From the NCBI GenBank assembly GCA_030617105.1, contig JAUWWC010000004.1, positions 1-54,985 on the forward strand: DNA of 54,985 bases. Direction: 5' to 3'. The DNA is from Candidatus Nealsoniibacteriota bacterium. Its GTDB lineage: Bacteria; Patescibacteriota; Minisyncoccia; Minisyncoccales; GWA2-38-27. The notes beneath the pieces were generated by a model, which was not told where the DNA came from, searched no databases, and saw only the letters and a program-made list of their open reading frames with translations. A program made the translations under genes and the position numbers. Positions 2,312 through 28,134 of this stretch are shown in pieces; position 1 is the first letter of the stretch; every line of letters begins with the position of its first letter.

Positions 2312-3654
2312 TAAAAATAGTTATTACTATTCTTTGGTTTTTTGTTTTTACAAAACTGCTCATTTTTTGGGTTTGGCTTTGGCAATTAAAAGAATATCAT
2401 TTAGGAAGATTTAAAGCGCATTTTGAAACGCAGAAAACAAGAAAGATAATCTTCAGTTTACACGGCGTTAGATGTCCTGAATTAACGCAAAAGGTTGCTG
2501 TTATTTTGACTATTGGTATATTTGTTGAATTTTTATTTTTGTTATTTGTTTTTAATTTTACAAATTATTTATTCTATATTTTTCTTTTAATCTCAATTAT
2601 TTTAGCCCCAATAATTATTTCTGTTTTAATATTATTTTTTCAAATCCCTGCTAATATCTTAATAAAGAGAACACTAAAGGAAGCGGAACAAAAAAGAAAA
2701 AGATTTGAAAATCTAACAGTTATCGGTATTACTGGGAGTTATGGTAAAAGTTCAACTAAAGAGTTTTTAGCAACAATTCTTTCTGAGAAGTATAATGTTT
2801 TAAAAACAAAAAGAAATATTAATGCTGAGATTGGAATTGCTCAAACAATCTTAAATGAATTAAATCCAGAACATCAGATTTTTATTGCAGAGATAGGAGC
2901 TTATGAAAGAGGGAAGATAAAGCAGGTTGCTCAAATGATTAAACCCAAGATAGGAATTTTAACTGGCATTAATGAACAGCATTTATCTACTTTTGGTTCT
3001 TTAGAAAATATTAGAAAAGCAAAATATGAATTAATAGAAGCTTTGCCAAAAGGTGGAATAGCTATAATAAAAGATAAATTAGATATACAGGCAGAGGATG
3101 TTAGGGTTGAAAGAGAATATATTTTATTTAGAATTGAATCAAATGATTTTAAAGTAAATTTGCTTGGCAGACATAATATAGAAAATATTTTATTGGCTGT
3201 TTCCTGTGCTAAAAATTTAGGAATGAGCCTGGAAGAGATTTCCAGAGCTTGTTTGAAAATTAAACCAGAGCAGGGAGGAATGAAGCTTTTGAAAAAACAG
3301 GGCTTGATTATTCTCGACGCTTCTTATTCTGCAAATCCAGACGGCGTAATTGCTGATTTAGAGTATTTGAAACTTTATCAAGGGAAAAGAGTTATTGTTA
3401 TGCCTTGTTTGATTGAATTAGGAAAAGCATCAAAACAAGTGCATAAAAGAATAGGACAAAAGATTGCTGAGGTTTGTGATCTTGCAATAATTACAACAAA
3501 AGATTATTTTAAAGAAATAAAAGGAGAAACAGAGACCGGGTCTCTGTCGCTTCTGTTGATTGAAAATCCAGAAGATATTATTGCTAAATTAAAAGAATTT
3601 TCTCCAAGTGTAATTTTATTAGAAGGACGAGTTCCTAAGTTAATATGGGATTAA
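2308..3654 (+). CDS. Membrane-anchored MurF-like Mur ligase
   Basis: A Mur-ligase family protein, 448 aa, resembling UDP-N-acetylmuramoyl-tripeptide--D-alanyl-D-alanine ligase. Unlike textbook MurF it has an N-terminal membrane part: one span at about residues 3-26 and two more at about 62-115. The ATP-binding P-loop GITGSYGKSS follows at 140-149, then the Mur central domain (KRNINAEIG, EIGAYERG) and a C-terminal ligase domain with LDASYSANPDG. Start and stop overlap both neighbours (4 nt and 10 nt), so translation is coupled. The reaction is probably ATP-dependent amide bond formation on a cell-wall precursor. Whether this is the organism's only MurF cannot be told from the window. Confidence 0.85.
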   Translation: MIKIVITILWFFVFTKLLIFWVWLWQLKEYHLGRFKAHFETQKTRKIIFSLHGVRCPELTQKVAVILTIGIFVEFLFLLFVFNFTNYLFYIFLLISIILAPIIISVLILFFQIPANILIKRTLKEAEQKRKRFENLTVIGITGSYGKSSTKEFLATILSEKYNVLKTKRNINAEIGIAQTILNELNPEHQIFIAEIGAYERGKIKQVAQMIKPKIGILTGINEQHLSTFGSLENIRKAKYELIEALPKGGIAIIKDKLDIQAEDVRVEREYILFRIESNDFKVNLLGRHNIENILLAVSCAKNLGMSLEEISRACLKIKPEQGGMKLLKKQGLIILDASYSANPDGVIADLEYLKLYQGKRVIVMPCLIELGKASKQVHKRIGQKIAEVCDLAIITTKDYFKEIKGETETGSLSLLLIENPEDIIAKLKEFSPSVILLEGRVPKLIWD

Positions 3655-4882: not shown

Positions 4883-5890
4883 ATGGGAATAAGAGAAATA
4901 AATAATAAAGAAGCTTGGGAAAGTTTTCTATTGGAATGTGATGAGAAGACGTTTTTGGATTCTTGGAATTGGGGAGAATTTCAAAAGAGAGAAGGGGAAA
5001 AGGTTTGGCGGCTGGGAGTTTATGATGGGAATGAGTTGGTTGGCGCGGCTTTGGTGGTGAGGGTGAAAGCGAGACGAGGAACGTTTTTGTTCGTGCCTCA
5101 CGGCCCAGTTGGAGAATCAAAGATTTTAGAAGTTCTGATTAAAAAACTAAAAGAAATAGCAAAACAGGAAAAAGCAAGTTTTATTAGAATTTCGCCGATT
5201 TGGGAGAGAAATGAAGAAAATATTAAGGCCTTTAGAAATCTCGCTTTTAGAAATGCTCCAATTCATATGCATCCAGAATTAACTTGGGAACTGGACATCA
5301 GGCCTTCTGAAGAGGAACTTTTGATGGGAATGAGAAAGACCACTCGTTATTTAATCCGTCAGGCGCAAAAAAACACAGATATTGAAATTGTAAAGACGCA
5401 AAATATTGAGGACTTGAAAAAGTTTAATGAAATTTATTGCCAAACAGCAAAACGGCATAAATTTGTGCCTTTTTCTTTGAAATATTTAGAGCACCAGCTT
5501 TGCTCCTTTTTGCCAGATAATCAGATTATGATTTTTTTAGGCAAATACAAAAAAGAAATTGCATCTGCATCTATTGCGGTTTTCTGGCAAGGGACTGGGT
5601 TTTATCATCATGGAGCTTCATTGCCAAAGTACAATAAAATTCCAGTTTCTTATCTTTTGCAATGGGAGGCAATCAAAGAAGCTAAAAGCAGAGGATGCCA
5701 AAAATATAATTTCTGGGGTATTGCTCCTGATGACAGTAAAAACCACCCATGGGCCGGTTTAGGCCTATTTAAGAAGGGTTTTGGAGGTTATAGAAAGGAT
5801 TATGTTAAGACCCAGGATTTATCTCTTTCTTGGAAGTATTGGCCAACCTATATTTTCGAAAAAATTAGGAAAATCAAGCGCAGGCTGTAA
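4883..5890 (+). CDS. FemAB-like peptidoglycan bridge aminoacyltransferase
   Basis: Members of this GNAT-fold family transfer amino acids from aminoacyl-tRNA to lipid II or related precursors. The protein is 335 aa, typical length. Recognisable stretches are SWNWGEFQKREG near the start, MRKTTRYLIRQA at about residue 150, and the C-terminal GASLPKYNKIPVSYLLQWE followed by YNFWGIAPD. It lies in the same operon as the MurF-like and FtsQ genes, which supports a role in peptidoglycan cross-bridge synthesis. The amino acid transferred cannot be predicted. Confidence 0.88.
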   Translation: MGIREINNKEAWESFLLECDEKTFLDSWNWGEFQKREGEKVWRLGVYDGNELVGAALVVRVKARRGTFLFVPHGPVGESKILEVLIKKLKEIAKQEKASFIRISPIWERNEENIKAFRNLAFRNAPIHMHPELTWELDIRPSEEELLMGMRKTTRYLIRQAQKNTDIEIVKTQNIEDLKKFNEIYCQTAKRHKFVPFSLKYLEHQLCSFLPDNQIMIFLGKYKKEIASASIAVFWQGTGFYHHGASLPKYNKIPVSYLLQWEAIKEAKSRGCQKYNFWGIAPDDSKNHPWAGLGLFKKGFGGYRKDYVKTQDLSLSWKYWPTYIFEKIRKIKRRL

Positions 5891-17368: not shown

Positions 17369-17388
17369 AAAAACTACTCTTCTATTTT
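17355..17388 (+). terminator. Hairpin between the 72-aa gene and tRNA-Ala
   Basis: A perfect 10-bp stem (GAAGAGTAGT / ACTACTCTTC) is followed by TATTTT. The T-run is weak. It ends just before the tRNA 5' end, so it may terminate or act as a processing signal. Confidence 0.65.
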
Positions 17389-18973
17389 AGGGCCCATAGT
17401 ATAGTGGTAAAACACGTCCGTGGCACGGACGAATCGTGGGTTCGACTCCCACTGGGTCCACCACTTGTGATTTTTTGATAGATTTCACCCCTGAAAACTG
17501 CTGATTTAAGTTAAAAATGAGGCCTAATTTAGTGGTTCCAAAACCTGTTTTTCTGTCATAGGGAATTCCGTCTGGAAATACTAACTTTTGGAACCGAGGA
17601 CGAACTTGAGGCGATAGATCAAACCATTGCCTGTCTAAGTTGCTGATAAAGTTAGTCGCATAGATTAAAGCCCCTTCAATATCAAACTGCTCTATTCGGG
17701 ATTCGCTTAATGATATTTTAGCAGCAGCAATTTCATTCTCTACTTCTTCTTTTCTTTCTTGAAATTCATCTCTTGTATAAGAACCATCTTCACGCATCTC
17801 AAAGATGCGTTTTCTTTTATCTTGAAGTACGGCTAAATATCTCTCATATTTCTTTGCATCCAGTTCAAAACTCTTACCTTTTTCTTCCCATAGATCAAGA
17901 ACAGTTGCCTTAAAGATATTAAGGAACTTTTCTTTGGGAGTGATTTTTTCTAAATACTTGAGGAATTCTTTTTCAAGGGTTTCTTTTGGAATGCTCTTAC
18001 CGAATAAGGAACATTCTTTATTATGGCAATGGTAATAGAAATATTTACCACCATTACCCCGAGAAGCACTTCCAGTTAAAGGTCTATTACATGAGGCACA
18101 AATTACTGTTCTACGTAAAGGGAAGTCCGGGTTGTATTTCTCATGCTTGTCCTTATTCGCCTTGCCAGAGCGAACGAGGCGGATTCTACGGGCTTCTTCT
18201 GGAGTGATCATAGGTTTATGTAATCCTTTTACTTCTTCGCCAGTAAAAGTATTAGGCAATATTCCTGCATAAAACTTGAGGTATTTGCCTAATATTCTAT
18301 CTACAAATTGTGTTGATGTTTTCCAGCCCCGGATTCTACTTAGCCCCCATTTATCAAGTAATCCTGCCAGTTCTACTTGAGAATAAAGTCCTTTGGCATA
18401 TTCTTTTAGGCCTTTCTGGATAATCGGGAAAGTTTTCTCATTAGGAGGATTTGGTTCGGTTTTCTTTTCTCCTCGTCTTTTGAAGTTGGTGTTTTGATAG
18501 CCGGGAGGAGCCTTCCAAGGCCAGAGACCTTGATTTATCTTAGCGCTCATGCCATCAACGCAACGTTGTGTTCGTATGGCGTTATCAAATTCTGAAAATC
18601 CTGCAAGTATTGTTTCAAATAGTTTAGTTGTTGGTTCGCTTCCGATTGGTTCTGTAACTGAATGTAGCGTAACACCATAACCTAATAATAATTTTCTAAT
18701 ATAAAAATGATCTTCGGCATTACGAGCAAATCTGTCCACTTTGGCTACCACAAAAGCATCTATTTTATCCTTATTCTTTCTACAAAATTCTATAGCTCTC
18801 AAGAATTCAGCTCTGTCAGCTGTTTTAGCTGAAGCTCCTTCTTCACGGAAAACTGCTGATACCTTAATATCTTTTTCTTTGCAATACTTATTACAAAGCT
18901 CCTCTTGAAAATCTAAAGAAGTTCCTTTTACTTGCTCATCGCTTGATACTCTTGTGTAAATAACTGCTTGCAT
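17387..18973 (-). CDS. Large serine recombinase (integrase), 3' end antisense to tRNA-Ala
   Basis: A site-specific recombinase of 528 aa. The N-terminal resolvase domain has IYTRVSSDEQVKGTS with the nucleophile Ser at residue 10, then VVAKVDRFARNAEDH. The recombinase domain follows (GLWPWKAPPGYQN) and then the zinc ribbon (CASCNRPLTGSASRG, CHNKEC) and coiled coil. I chose the ATG at 18973, directly before QAVIYTRVSS. A longer upstream frame lacks family similarity. The last 24 or so residues (VDPVGVEPTIRPCHGR and on) are an antisense reading of tRNA-Ala, as expected when an integrase gene abuts its attachment region. It is the likely integrase of the 16.7-kb element. Confidence 0.93.
   Translation of the reverse strand: MQAVIYTRVSSDEQVKGTSLDFQEELCNKYCKEKDIKVSAVFREEGASAKTADRAEFLRAIEFCRKNKDKIDAFVVAKVDRFARNAEDHFYIRKLLLGYGVTLHSVTEPIGSEPTTKLFETILAGFSEFDNAIRTQRCVDGMSAKINQGLWPWKAPPGYQNTNFKRRGEKKTEPNPPNEKTFPIIQKGLKEYAKGLYSQVELAGLLDKWGLSRIRGWKTSTQFVDRILGKYLKFYAGILPNTFTGEEVKGLHKPMITPEEARRIRLVRSGKANKDKHEKYNPDFPLRRTVICASCNRPLTGSASRGNGGKYFYYHCHNKECSLFGKSIPKETLEKEFLKYLEKITPKEKFLNIFKATVLDLWEEKGKSFELDAKKYERYLAVLQDKRKRIFEMREDGSYTRDEFQERKEEVENEIAAAKISLSESRIEQFDIEGALIYATNFISNLDRQWFDLSPQVRPRFQKLVFPDGIPYDRKTGFGTTKLGLIFNLNQQFSGVKSIKKSQVVDPVGVEPTIRPCHGRVLPLYYGP
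17390..17463 (+). tRNA. tRNA-Ala (anticodon GGC) with encoded CCA
   Basis: Acceptor GGGCCCA/TGGGTCC has the G3-U70 wobble that identifies alanine tRNAs. The anticodon stem is CGTCC/GGACG with loop GTGGCAC (anticodon GGC). The T-arm is GTGGG/CCCAC with TTCGACT. The discriminator is A, followed by an encoded CCA (17461-17463), unlike tRNA-Lys at 16004. The opposite strand is read by the 3' end of the serine recombinase ORF. Confidence 0.93.
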
Positions 18974-18978
18974 AAAAC

Positions 18979-19049
18979 TTAAAGGGACAGTCTGGTTGCT
19001 CAATCCACTTGCTCCGAAGAGTAGCCTTATCGACAGACTGCCCCTTAAA
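18979..19049. repeat. Imperfect inverted repeat upstream of the recombinase
   Basis: Arms 18979-18994 and 19034-19049 match over 14 of 16 bp (core GGGACAGTCTG with CAGACTGCCCC) around a 39-nt centre. The arms flank the start of the recombinase ATG region. It could be an operator, leader structure or recombination site. Confidence 0.6.
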
Positions 19050-19119
19050 GATAACAAGGCAAGAAAAATCTTCGGAGAATGTTATATGGATTGTGGCAAC
19101 GCTTTAATTATAACACATT

Positions 19120-20446: not shown

Positions 20447-21490
20447 TTAGTTTGCTTTTGGTTTCTTTCTGAAAATAAGCAAGTCTCGATTTACAGCAAC
20501 TAATTCTTTCTTCCTTTTACATGCTCCCATTACCTGAGGACCAACTTGTTGCGACGAGACAGGCACTGCAATCCTTCTGATTAAGCCGAATTTCTCAAGT
20601 AGTATTATCGTAAAATCAAAGGGAATATCTTTATATTGGGTTTTGATTGCCATCGGAGCGATTAGAACTGTTAAGATATTCTTTTCTTTTAAAAATTTAG
20701 AAGTCTGTTCAAATATCAGTTCCATTTCCGTAAGATAATCTTTATAAGAGAGCCGGGAAATTCCGCCATAGGCCTCTTCTTGCTGCGACCAGTATGGAGG
20801 GTCGATGAAAACTAAATCAGCTTTTTCATTGATCGGCCATTTCTTTGTAGCATCATGCTGGATAATGTCTTTTCTTACCGGTCTGGTGTCGAAGGCGATA
20901 CATTTTCTATTCATATCGTGACAAACATCTACGGTTGTACCGCCACCGGCCATTGGATCGATTACCAAGTCATTTTCTTTAGTCCAATAGTAGAGGACAT
21001 TTTGAATTATCTGACCGGGAATTTTTCCTGGAAAATCCTCAGTCCCAAATTTCTTATCGCATGAAGCGAAATTCCAAACATCAGTATAGCGAAGCCAAAT
21101 TGGATTACTATTTTTAGGTTGAGGAAGATAATAGTTGCAGATTTTATGCCAGCTAATATTCTTGCCTTCGGGGAGTTCATCGAGTTCAGGATACTTTTTA
21201 GCAAATTGAATTGCTTGTTCAATCGTTCTTTGGCTTTTATTCAAAGATGTCGCAACGCGTTGCGTTATCTTCTTTCCATAAACTTTTGCTTTCCTAAAGT
21301 TAGCATTCTCTTCCGGAATTCTTTTTCCGAGCATATGATAACCCTCAATCAAAGTCCACCGGGAAGTGAATACGGACTCTGTGATAATGGCTTGACATTC
21401 TTCGATCAGAGCCTGATACCATTCTTCGCTTTCCAACGGCGTTATAATTTTCTTCGGGGATACTTGGTTTAATGTTAGTTTGTTGCTCAT
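20447..21490 (-). CDS. DNA methyltransferase with ParB/DUF-like N-terminal region
   Basis: A 347-aa DNA methyltransferase, probably adenine-N6. An N-terminal helical region (about 1-120; MLGKRIPEENANFRKAKVYG) resembles helix-turn-helix nuclease/ParB-associated modules. Then come motif I DPMAGGGTT (179-187) and the catalytic DPPYW (230-234). I chose the ATG at 21490 (MSNKLTLNQ). The ORF extends upstream to 21586, but that part lies in the structured leader. It may be an orphan methylase of the mobile element that protects it from restriction. No partner nuclease is adjacent. Confidence 0.87.
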   Translation of the reverse strand: MSNKLTLNQVSPKKIITPLESEEWYQALIEECQAIITESVFTSRWTLIEGYHMLGKRIPEENANFRKAKVYGKKITQRVATSLNKSQRTIEQAIQFAKKYPELDELPEGKNISWHKICNYYLPQPKNSNPIWLRYTDVWNFASCDKKFGTEDFPGKIPGQIIQNVLYYWTKENDLVIDPMAGGGTTVDVCHDMNRKCIAFDTRPVRKDIIQHDATKKWPINEKADLVFIDPPYWSQQEEAYGGISRLSYKDYLTEMELIFEQTSKFLKEKNILTVLIAPMAIKTQYKDIPFDFTIILLEKFGLIRRIAVPVSSQQVGPQVMGACKRKKELVAVNRDLLIFRKKPKAN

Positions 21491-21518
21491 AGAATCAATA
21501 TTTATTACTAAAGAAAAA

Positions 21519-21575
21519 CTCTGGGCGCCTGTACCGGGAAGCCCAGAGCTAATGCCAATTGGCTTTGGTACAGGC
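21519..21575 (-). promoter_or_regulatory. Second interleaved inverted-repeat leader, ending in a terminator
   Basis: Arms CTCTGGGC (21519-21526), GCCTGTACC (21527-21535), GCCCAGAG (21541-21548), GGTACAGGC (21567-21575). Arms 1/3 and 2/4 pair perfectly and interleave. On the minus strand the 8-bp helix is followed by TTTTTCTT, then the methyltransferase ATG 28 nt later. It has the same architecture as 20337-20388. Confidence 0.78.
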
Positions 21576-21600: not shown

Positions 21601-21632
21601 AAAAACCAGACACTATAGTGCAGTGCCTGGTT
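21601..21632 (-). terminator. Terminator overlapping the end of a 27-codon leader ORF
   Basis: An 11-nt stem (AACCAGACACT / AGTGCCTGGTT, one mismatch) reads into TTTTTTATTTT on the minus strand. The stop codon of the small ORF lies at the loop edge, so a translating ribosome would cover the stem. Confidence 0.8.
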
Positions 21633-21696
21633 CTAAATCAAAAAATCCAACGAGTTTCAGCGAGAAAGCACTAATAGTGTTTCCTCTTTTGCTCAT
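21613..21696 (-). CDS. Putative 27-aa leader peptide
   Basis: Begins MSKRGNTISAFSLKLV and ends in DLEPGTAL, terminating within the hairpin at 21601-21632. AAGGAGGT lies upstream at a rather long spacing (about 14 nt). It lies between a minus-strand promoter and the methyltransferase gene, so it fits a transcription-attenuation leader. No run of regulatory codons is seen. Confidence 0.45.
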   Translation of the reverse strand: MSKRGNTISAFSLKLVGFFDLEPGTAL

Positions 21697-21786
21697 TGGA
21701 TTGAGGCCTACCTCCTTATTGGATTAAGAACCTGATTAGAAAATCAGGAAAGAGAGAATAATATTCTAATTTTAAAAGCTATTTTT

Positions 21787-21815
21787 ATTTTAAGCGATTT
21801 AAAAAGACTTGTCAA
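21787..21815 (-). promoter_or_regulatory. Promoter of the methyltransferase leader transcript
   Basis: Minus-strand TTGACA (21810-21815), 17-bp spacer, TAAAAT (21787-21792). It starts a leader of about 290 nt containing a micro-ORF and two terminators before the methyltransferase gene. Confidence 0.8.
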
Positions 21816-26220: not shown

Positions 26221-27273
26221 ATGGTGTCAAATTTAATGACAAATATAAAATTTGAAAAGATTGATAGTGTCAACAATCCTAATTCTATTCATGGAATATA
26301 CCCGTATAGGGGTAAAATATCTGCTATTGATGTAGAACAAGTAATCAGACAGCTTCCCAGGAAAGGTATTTTATTAGATCCTTTCTGTGGATCAGGAACA
26401 ATAGTTTATGAAGCACAAAAAAGAGACATTAAGGCAATTGGTGTAGAATTAAATCCACTTGCTGTAGATATTGCTAGAGCAAAAATATATCTTGATTCAA
26501 AAGCCAATGTTATTAAAGAGGCCGAACAGATTATTAAAAAAGCGAAAGCAATAAAACAATTTAAAAAAATGCCTCAACAGGCATTGAGACATTTTCATTT
26601 TGAAACCGCTGAAGAGATTATGCGAGTAGCGAAATTTTTTAATGAGATGTCCGATTACCTAAAAGCAGTATTTTATGGAAGCGTAGCATTAGCTGCAAGA
26701 GGATGTAACGGTTATAAGTGGACTTCGAGTACAGTTGGGAAAGATATAAATCCTAAAATCAAAATTGATTTCTATAAAAAATTTATTTATAAGACAAAGA
26801 AACATTTTCATCCAGTGGAGCATAATGGAAGCGAGATATTCTTTCATGATGCCCGGAAATTAACAGAAATATTACCTAGGAACTCGATAGATTATGTATT
26901 TACTAGTCCTCCGTATTTCGACTGCTTAAACTATACTGCCTATTATGCGAAGATTATTTATACGATTTTTGGACAAGATAGGCTACGCATTAAAAATTCG
27001 CTTATACAAAATTACAGTGCATATATTGATGATATGAAGACGGTACTGGATGAATTAAATGCTGTTTGCAAGAAGGGAGCGTTAATTATTTTTGTAGTCG
27101 GTGATAAAAAAGTTCATGGCAAGACCATCAATGGAGGACAGTTTTTTAAAAAAATAAGTCCGTTTGAGCGGTGCCGGATTGTTGAGCGCGAATATACAGG
27201 AAGTAGCTCGCAAATATTCGATAAATTAAATAAGACAAAGCGTAAAGAGCAAATAATAATTTGGGCAAAATAA
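26221..27273 (+). CDS. DNA methyltransferase (motif I first), cluster M1
   Basis: A 350-aa SAM-dependent DNA methyltransferase. Motif I LLDPFCGSGT is at 51-60, the acidic motif II follows in GVELNPLAVD, and the catalytic TSPPYFDCLNY lies about 170 residues later. An N4-cytosine or N6-adenine target cannot be told apart. The motif order differs from the next gene, so the two are not recent duplicates. Two methylases side by side are typical where each strand of an asymmetric site is modified separately. Confidence 0.9.
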   Translation: MVSNLMTNIKFEKIDSVNNPNSIHGIYPYRGKISAIDVEQVIRQLPRKGILLDPFCGSGTIVYEAQKRDIKAIGVELNPLAVDIARAKIYLDSKANVIKEAEQIIKKAKAIKQFKKMPQQALRHFHFETAEEIMRVAKFFNEMSDYLKAVFYGSVALAARGCNGYKWTSSTVGKDINPKIKIDFYKKFIYKTKKHFHPVEHNGSEIFFHDARKLTEILPRNSIDYVFTSPPYFDCLNYTAYYAKIIYTIFGQDRLRIKNSLIQNYSAYIDDMKTVLDELNAVCKKGALIIFVVGDKKVHGKTINGGQFFKKISPFERCRIVEREYTGSSSQIFDKLNKTKRKEQIIIWAK

Positions 27274-27282
27274 CTAAAAATT

Positions 27283-28134
27283 ATGGAAAAAGGTAAGAAA
27301 AAAAATGAACTTAATATTGCAGGAGCAAAAATCTATATAAAAGATGCTCGAAAGATGACAGAGCTACTAGATGAAAGCGTGCATCTTGTTATTACCAGTC
27401 CTCCTTATTGGACATTAAAGGATTATAAGAATGATAATCAAATAGGTTTTGGGAGTAGATCGTATAAAGAATACATCAATAATCTTAATAAGGTCTGGAC
27501 CGAATGTGTCCGAGTGTTAGTTCCCGATGGAAAAGTATGTATTAACATTATGCCTTTTCTTCTAACAGGAAAAAATGCAAGGTTTGATCGGAGAGAGACA
27601 AGGCTTGTTCTGAGTGATTTAGATCAGTTTATGAATAGTACTAAGCAGATGTATCATTTCGGATTGTATATTTGGGACAAAAGAAAGATTGCGAGATTTA
27701 GTTCTTTTGGCAGTTATCCCTATCCTCCAAACATATTTTCGACTTACCCGTACGAATGGATCTTTATTTTTTCTAAAAAAGGCAAACGGCCGCCTGCTAA
27801 CAAGGAAAATAAAGAACTGTCCAGAATTACCCATAAGGAGTGGGAAGAGTGGGCTATAAATTCTATTTGGGAAATGCAACCCGCAAAAGCTAAATCAGAA
27901 AAGCATCCAGCACCATTTCCAGAGGAACTTCCTTATAGGCTTATTAAGCTATACAGCTTTGTTGGGGATACAGTTCTAGATCCTTTTTTAGGCACTGGTA
28001 CTACTGCAAAAGTTGCCTTAGATTTAAATAGAAAAGCGATAGGATATGAGATAAACAAAAAATATCTATCACTAATAAAGAGGAAGCTTTCTAAAACCAC
28101 CAATCGATCTAATCAGGACCATGAAGTTTTTTAA
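27283..28134 (+). CDS. DNA methyltransferase (beta-type motif order), cluster M2
   Basis: A 283-aa DNA methyltransferase with the catalytic TSPPYW at 38-43 before motif I DPFLGTGTTA at about 233-242, the beta-class order. TSPPY often indicates N4-cytosine or N6-adenine specificity. It starts 9 nt after M1, and its last 14 nt overlap the next gene, so the operon is tight. Confidence 0.9.
   Translation: MEKGKKKNELNIAGAKIYIKDARKMTELLDESVHLVITSPPYWTLKDYKNDNQIGFGSRSYKEYINNLNKVWTECVRVLVPDGKVCINIMPFLLTGKNARFDRRETRLVLSDLDQFMNSTKQMYHFGLYIWDKRKIARFSSFGSYPYPPNIFSTYPYEWIFIFSKKGKRPPANKENKELSRITHKEWEEWAINSIWEMQPAKAKSEKHPAPFPEELPYRLIKLYSFVGDTVLDPFLGTGTTAKVALDLNRKAIGYEINKKYLSLIKRKLSKTTNRSNQDHEVF

Follow-up and report, generated by a model that had tools for sequence, protein, structure and literature searches.

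Organization of the mobile element and its methyltransferase gene

The window analyzed here, a 54,985-nucleotide stretch, comes from a small host genome (0.54 Mb, 17 contigs), probably of Patescibacteria type as judged by its size and gene content, and contains an integrative element that begins in a tRNA-Ala gene (positions 17390-17463). A serine recombinase gene (17387-19057, minus strand) is located at the tRNA-Ala end of the element. Its open reading frame reaches antisense into the tRNA gene (17387-17463), marking the integration site, and no second copy of the tRNA was found for the other end. The element also has minus-strand genes for an N6/N4 DNA methyltransferase of 347 amino acids (20447-21490; Pfam PF01555, 1.1e-21; PADLOC MTase_II), a 311-aa protein and a Zn-ribbon protein, along with a 70-aa ORF and small ORFs. 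We noticed no cognate endonuclease adjoining the methyltransferase. Two more DNA methyltransferase-like genes lie side by side next to the element (26221-28134), with defence-like ORFs downstream.

The recombinase and the 70-aa ORF are common to related elements in other genomes. On the far side of the element, Rfam identified a LOOT RNA (RF03000; 25082-25194, plus strand), and two of the related elements also have one beside the recombinase (L047, 5305-5427; L050, 6347-6466). Its presence in these three elements suggests that LOOT is a cargo or border part of such integrative elements.

Relatives of the methyltransferase were rare. Each matched either the N-terminal or the catalytic part of the protein, and none was preceded by a leader like the one described below. 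The N-terminal domain by itself was found as stand-alone ORFs at three loci (L014, L024 and L011), again with no such leader. Because the homologous N-termini start near the methyltransferase ATG, the leader region itself is probably not coding.

Promoter-like sites and tandem terminator-like hairpins upstream of the methyltransferase gene

The methyltransferase gene is separated from the Zn-ribbon gene by 445 nt, which contain, in order on the minus strand, a promoter-like site, a structured stretch of ~185 nt and a 57-nt feature. The strongest promoter-like site, TTGACA-17-TAAAAT (21787-21815, minus strand), was assigned by consensus match only (11/12). The structured stretch (21602-21786, minus strand; z = -5.3), a putative leader or non-coding RNA, was found in a terminator scan to end in two tandem terminator-like hairpins, CTCGTTGGATTTTTT and AACCAG..CTGGTTTTTT. 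A weaker promoter-like site, TTGATT-18-TATAGT (21612-21641, minus strand; 9/12, also by consensus match only), might drive transcription of the methyltransferase mRNA from ~30 nt ahead of the 57-nt feature.

A similar layout to that of 21602-21815 was found before a primase gene in L047, the related element of genome G025 (5053-5254, minus strand). There, the site TTGACA-16-TATTAT is accompanied by hairpins, the string GAAACACTA-TTA and two tandem terminators (ACTGGG..CCCAGTTTTT and AACCGG..CCGGTTTTTT). The match of a covariance model of the upstream RNA to this region was modest (15.8 bits, E 0.004 in 74 kb), and it was the best match there and syntenic. The two elements probably share this leader or small RNA and its tandem terminators. 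It lies before the replication or methyltransferase operon of the element and is possibly a small RNA or an antitermination leader.

Two interleaved inverted repeats precede the methyltransferase gene

The 57-nt feature (21519-21575) lies on the minus strand, as do all genes nearby, and is read from 21575 to 21519. It consists of two inverted repeats in the order A-B-A'-B'. Arm A, GCCUGUACC (21567-21575), is followed by an 18-nt linker, AAAGCCAAUUGGCAUUAG (21549-21566), arm B, CUCUGGGC (21541-21548), a 5-nt linker, UUCCC (21536-21540), arm A', GGUACAGGC (21527-21535), and arm B', GCCCAGAG (21519-21526), such that the RNA reads 5' to 3' GCCUGUACC-18 nt-CUCUGGGC-UUCCC-GGUACAGGC-GCCCAGAG-UUUUUCUUU and the spacing is A(9)-18-B(8)-5-A'-0-B'. 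The A/A' repeat (GCCTGTACC/GGTACAGGC; 21527-21535 and 21567-21575) matches at 9/9 positions with its arms 31 bp apart, and the B/B' repeat (CTCTGGGC/GCCCAGAG; 21519-21526 and 21541-21548) at 8/8 positions with its arms 14 bp apart. Both helices are GC-rich and they use no common bases. A' abuts B' and lies inside the 14-nt loop of B:B'. The sequence after B' is TTTTTCTTT; a U-tract, UUUUUCUUU (21510-21518), lies immediately 3' of B', and the methyltransferase ATG is 28 nt past B'. These findings confirm the observation in an earlier note on this DNA, which had described two perfect, interleaved helices of 8 and 9 bp ahead of the methyltransferase, one of them with a U-tract.

The arrangement is rare. 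With arms of at least 8 nt, at least 5 G/C and a span of at most 70, there was one case in the 55-kb window and none in 60 dinucleotide shuffles. The shuffle mean was 0.017 at a looser setting (arms ≥7, ≥4 G/C), and it rose to 0.72 once AT-rich arms of 8 were admitted. The rarity is therefore due to the GC-rich arms. In a scan for the architecture (A, B, A', B', a junction of 0-2 nt and a span of at most 160), the feature was the only site in the window, with a shuffle mean of 0.15.

The B:B' helix has 8 bp, six of them G-C pairs, and with UUUUUCUUU directly behind it has the GC-rich hairpin and U-tract of an intrinsic terminator; its 14-nt loop exceeds the maximum loop of the terminator scan. 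It would rank as the third terminator in a row, after the two upstream on the same strand. The feature might thus be an ordinary constitutive terminator, the last in a row that shields the methyltransferase gene from the small RNA upstream, with the second helix as decoration or a by-product of the origin of the hairpin. The two terminators upstream, the tandem terminators of L047 and the position of the U-tract directly 3' of B' all favor this explanation. A constitutive terminator, however, would have no need for a perfect, GC-rich 9-bp A:A' helix that stabilizes a competing fold and is unexpected by chance, and we regard this alternative as somewhat unlikely, albeit the strongest of those considered.

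The arms could instead act in DNA. The 18-nt linker contains a perfect 10-bp palindrome, GCCAATTGGC (21554-21563), and the palindrome or the arms could be an operator bound by a protein, possibly by the methyltransferase itself through its N-terminal domain, for autoregulation. Other elements encode that domain in ORFs of its own, and it could bind DNA. M.SsoII and M.EcoRII each have a single repeat that serves as a DNA operator. The likeness to these systems is the presence of inverted repeats before a methyltransferase gene; the locus here differs in having two interleaved repeats and a U-tract. Both M.EcoRII and M.SsoII are listed as autoregulating methyltransferases (PMC3874152), which is a point in favor of an operator. 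In contrast, no further copies of the arms or the palindrome were found in the window above chance, giving no support for a regulon-type operator; an operator would not usually consist of two dissimilar, interleaved repeats with arm spacings of 31 and 14 bp; and the U-tract would be left unexplained. We consider an operator to be unlikely.

Folding of the leader RNA

We compared the calculated energies of the alternative folds. The nested fold with the A hairpin (-27.1 kcal/mol) was more stable than the best fold that keeps B:B' (-20.9 kcal/mol), and in the nested model A:A' was formed at >99% once A' was transcribed. The A:A' helix is complete before B' is transcribed. Within the A hairpin, the competitor of B is a stretch of the 18-nt linker, AAGCC, that pairs with the last bases of B (GGCUU).

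With A' positioned inside the B:B' loop, the simultaneous formation of both helices would make a pseudoknot. Nested-fold programs cannot score pseudoknots, and we used textbook nearest-neighbour stacking energies plus a penalty. The resulting estimate of -29 to -31 kcal/mol is competitive with -27.1 kcal/mol; it is rough and rests on an assumed penalty of ~9.6. By geometric judgement, the 5-nt linker can span the deep groove of the 9-bp helix, and the 18-nt linker can span the 17-bp stack.

The earlier note had interpreted the repeats as a terminator and anti-terminator. The U-tract hairpin and a more stable, blocking fold agree with this, but the two helices share no bases and are not the mutually exclusive arms of a classical attenuator. 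The note had also proposed that the second helix sequesters the arms of the first or forms a pseudoknot. An A:A' pseudoknot is possible, and the nested A hairpin also holds part of B.

Search for homologous leaders

We found no second copy of the methyltransferase leader in ~600 related genomes, IMG/VR, phages and plasmids. The covariance-model search covered 246 genomes from the order and 380 from the phylum, in partly overlapping draws. BLASTN of the leader against related genomes, phages and plasmids gave only short chance or terminator matches, and scanning IMG/VR for exact copies of A'B' or of the upstream RNA gave none. Searching IMG/VR for the Zn-ribbon and 311-aa proteins also gave no matches. 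Consistent with the statement in the earlier note that the leader belongs to no recognized riboswitch class, none of the 4227 covariance models of Rfam 15 scored above its gathering score, and nothing relevant appeared at E ≤10.

The weak covariance-model matches (L028 and L030-L034) were coding sequence or differently nested hairpins. With the single-sequence model R1, matches in L031-L034 were rejected as lying inside coding genes. The R1 match in L030 had an apparently compensated B:B' and was rejected because it folds into ordinary nested hairpins within a palindromic repeat. The L030 locus, in another genome, has large palindromic repeats at 1438-1648 and 2581-2762 (TACTTTGAATTA...TAATTCAAAGTA) that are MITE-like. 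Pairing of the leader in trans with the upstream RNA, the LOOT RNA or the recombinase leader described below was not convincing; pairing with the recombinase leader was reached in 3% of shuffles, which preserved mononucleotide composition only.

The lack of homologues neither supports nor refutes a switch. The terminator-like hairpin, the blocking alternative and the pseudoknot are all possible from the sequence, and the "RNA switch" of the earlier note is plausible and partly supported, although no homologous leader was found.

A conserved pseudoknotted RNA in the recombinase leader

Scanning the relatives for interleaved repeats revealed a second leader with interleaved helices, in front of the recombinase gene of the same element (18978-19100, minus strand). 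The architecture scan of the relatives' loci recovered three such recombinase leaders and one unrelated match. The RNA is 119-125 nt long and occurs in five elements, immediately before the recombinase gene; the other copies are L047 2100-2223 (minus strand), L048 2316-2438 (plus), L050 10717-10841 (plus) and L064 1503-1621 (minus). L064 comes from another part of the phylum and has a different serine recombinase, and thus the leader precedes two recombinase types. There was no Rfam match for this RNA.

In the window, the predicted structure includes an outer helix P1 (19096-19100/18995-18999), P2 (19069-19077/19012-19020), a P3 hairpin (19050-19059/19025-19031) and a pseudoknot (19034-19040/18988-18994), all on the minus strand. 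The pseudoknot forms between strand Y, in the P3 loop, and strand Y', which follows P1 without a gap; in the window, 4 nt separate Y' from the ATG. P1 of L048 has 14 perfect pairs. In L049 (~2410-2460, minus strand), a simplified form is found before a related recombinase, with the Y/Y' hairpin (AAAAGGGGCGGTTCCAGAAGGACCGTCCC) but not P1-P3.

When the five sequences were aligned by sequence only, 87.5% of cells paired. Both-sided changes were found in 12 of the 29 pairs, four of them in the pseudoknot, and covariation was present in every helix (P1, P2, P3 and the pseudoknot). None of 500 shuffles equalled this number, a comparison that favors the structure in that it was derived from the same five sequences. 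When the partners were slid by 1-3 columns, at most five pairs had both-sided changes. Together, the five sequences provide good evidence that the recombinase leader is a real RNA, and we propose that it is a structure acting at the level of translation.

The two leaders have several properties in common: the order A-B-A'-B', the 0-nt junction between A' and B', the location in the leader of a mobile-element gene, and the minus strand. They differ in that there is no sequence similarity, the recombinase leader is longer (119-125 nt) with the extra helices P2 and P3, and its Y' ends beside the start codon with no U-tract, whereas the methyltransferase leader has one. The recombinase model R3 matched 18978-19100 and did not match 21519-21575. 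As judged by these sequence comparisons, the methyltransferase leader is not a member of the recombinase-leader RNA, but it could operate as a smaller version of that RNA.

The shared topology raises the possibility that the methyltransferase leader also acts on translation, with a pseudoknot before the start codon that limits ribosome access and a U-tract that is incidental; in the recombinase leader of the window, 4 nt lie between the last paired base and the ATG. In the methyltransferase leader, however, 28 nt separate the end of B' from the ATG, and no Shine-Dalgarno-like sequence was seen in or near B'. We regard control of translation as improbable, more so than an operator.

Proposed mechanism and comparison to known systems

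The sequence and the complementarity of its arms, the U-tract, the rarity of the arrangement, its place before the gene and the calculated nested energies are established; we infer an action at the RNA level, termination by B:B', antitermination by A:A' and the existence of a trigger. We tentatively favor, at somewhat short of an even chance, the interpretation that the 57 nt are a cis-acting attenuator in the 5' leader of the mobile-element DNA methyltransferase. B:B' and the U-tract would form an intrinsic terminator with A' in its 14-nt loop. Arm A, made first, would take A' before B' exists, forming a 9-bp helix that could stack on B' across the 0-nt junction, and the AAGCC of the linker would hold the GGCUU end of B within the A hairpin. 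This early fold would hinder or delay B:B', and polymerase would read through into the methyltransferase gene. If A were kept from A' by a ligand, a protein, a trans RNA or a changed transcription speed, B:B' would close and transcription would end. By analogy with the guanidine-IV riboswitch discussed below, A:A' would correspond to read-through and B:B' to termination.

The recombinase leader is a precedent for such an attenuator, in the same element, with the same strand order and 0-nt junction, and covarying. Against an attenuator, B:B' is short (8 bp) and its 14-nt loop is long for a terminator, no homologous leader was found, and two stronger terminators lie just upstream, so that B:B' may be simply a third. 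By itself, the methyltransferase leader is an orphan candidate attenuator.

The nearest published mechanism is that of the guanidine-IV (GGAM-1) riboswitch, in which pairing with the terminator loop hinders the terminator stem and causes read-through (PMC7736828, PMC11611296, PMC10907184). In both cases, the loop of a terminator hairpin with a U-tract pairs with a strand located further upstream, a likeness of topology drawn here from complementarity only. The methyltransferase leader differs in that its upstream strand provides the 5' half of a 9-bp helix, the 3' half of which adjoins B', whereas guanidine-IV forms a loop-loop kiss, and the genes differ as well (a DNA methyltransferase as opposed to a sugE-type transporter). 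Intrinsic (Rho-independent) terminators with attenuation similarly have a GC-rich stem and a U-tract before a gene; unlike an ordinary intrinsic terminator, the 14-nt loop of B:B' includes a strand whose complement lies beyond the hairpin. The SAM-II/SAM-V and preQ1-I H-type riboswitches have a short two-helix pseudoknot in the mRNA leader (PMC10907184), as the methyltransferase leader would. They differ from it in loop lengths (the methyltransferase leader has a long first linker and a 0-nt last linker, and no Rfam match), and they regulate mostly by occlusion of the ribosome site.

A broader possibility is that the element carries a shared, undescribed device, consisting of pseudoknotted leaders with abutting 3' strands, conserved and covarying on the recombinase and in a minimal, terminator-linked version on the methyltransferase, by which integration or excision and DNA modification answer one signal. 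We consider this proposal doubtful, at about the level of the operator. Should the attenuator work in the way described above, it would add to the natural examples of regulation by a pseudoknot that involves the loop of the terminator itself, here in a mobile element of the Patescibacteria type, for which RNA regulation is little known. The recombinase leader is the stronger lead and merits separate study: it is an undescribed, covarying, pseudoknotted RNA that could control whether the element moves.
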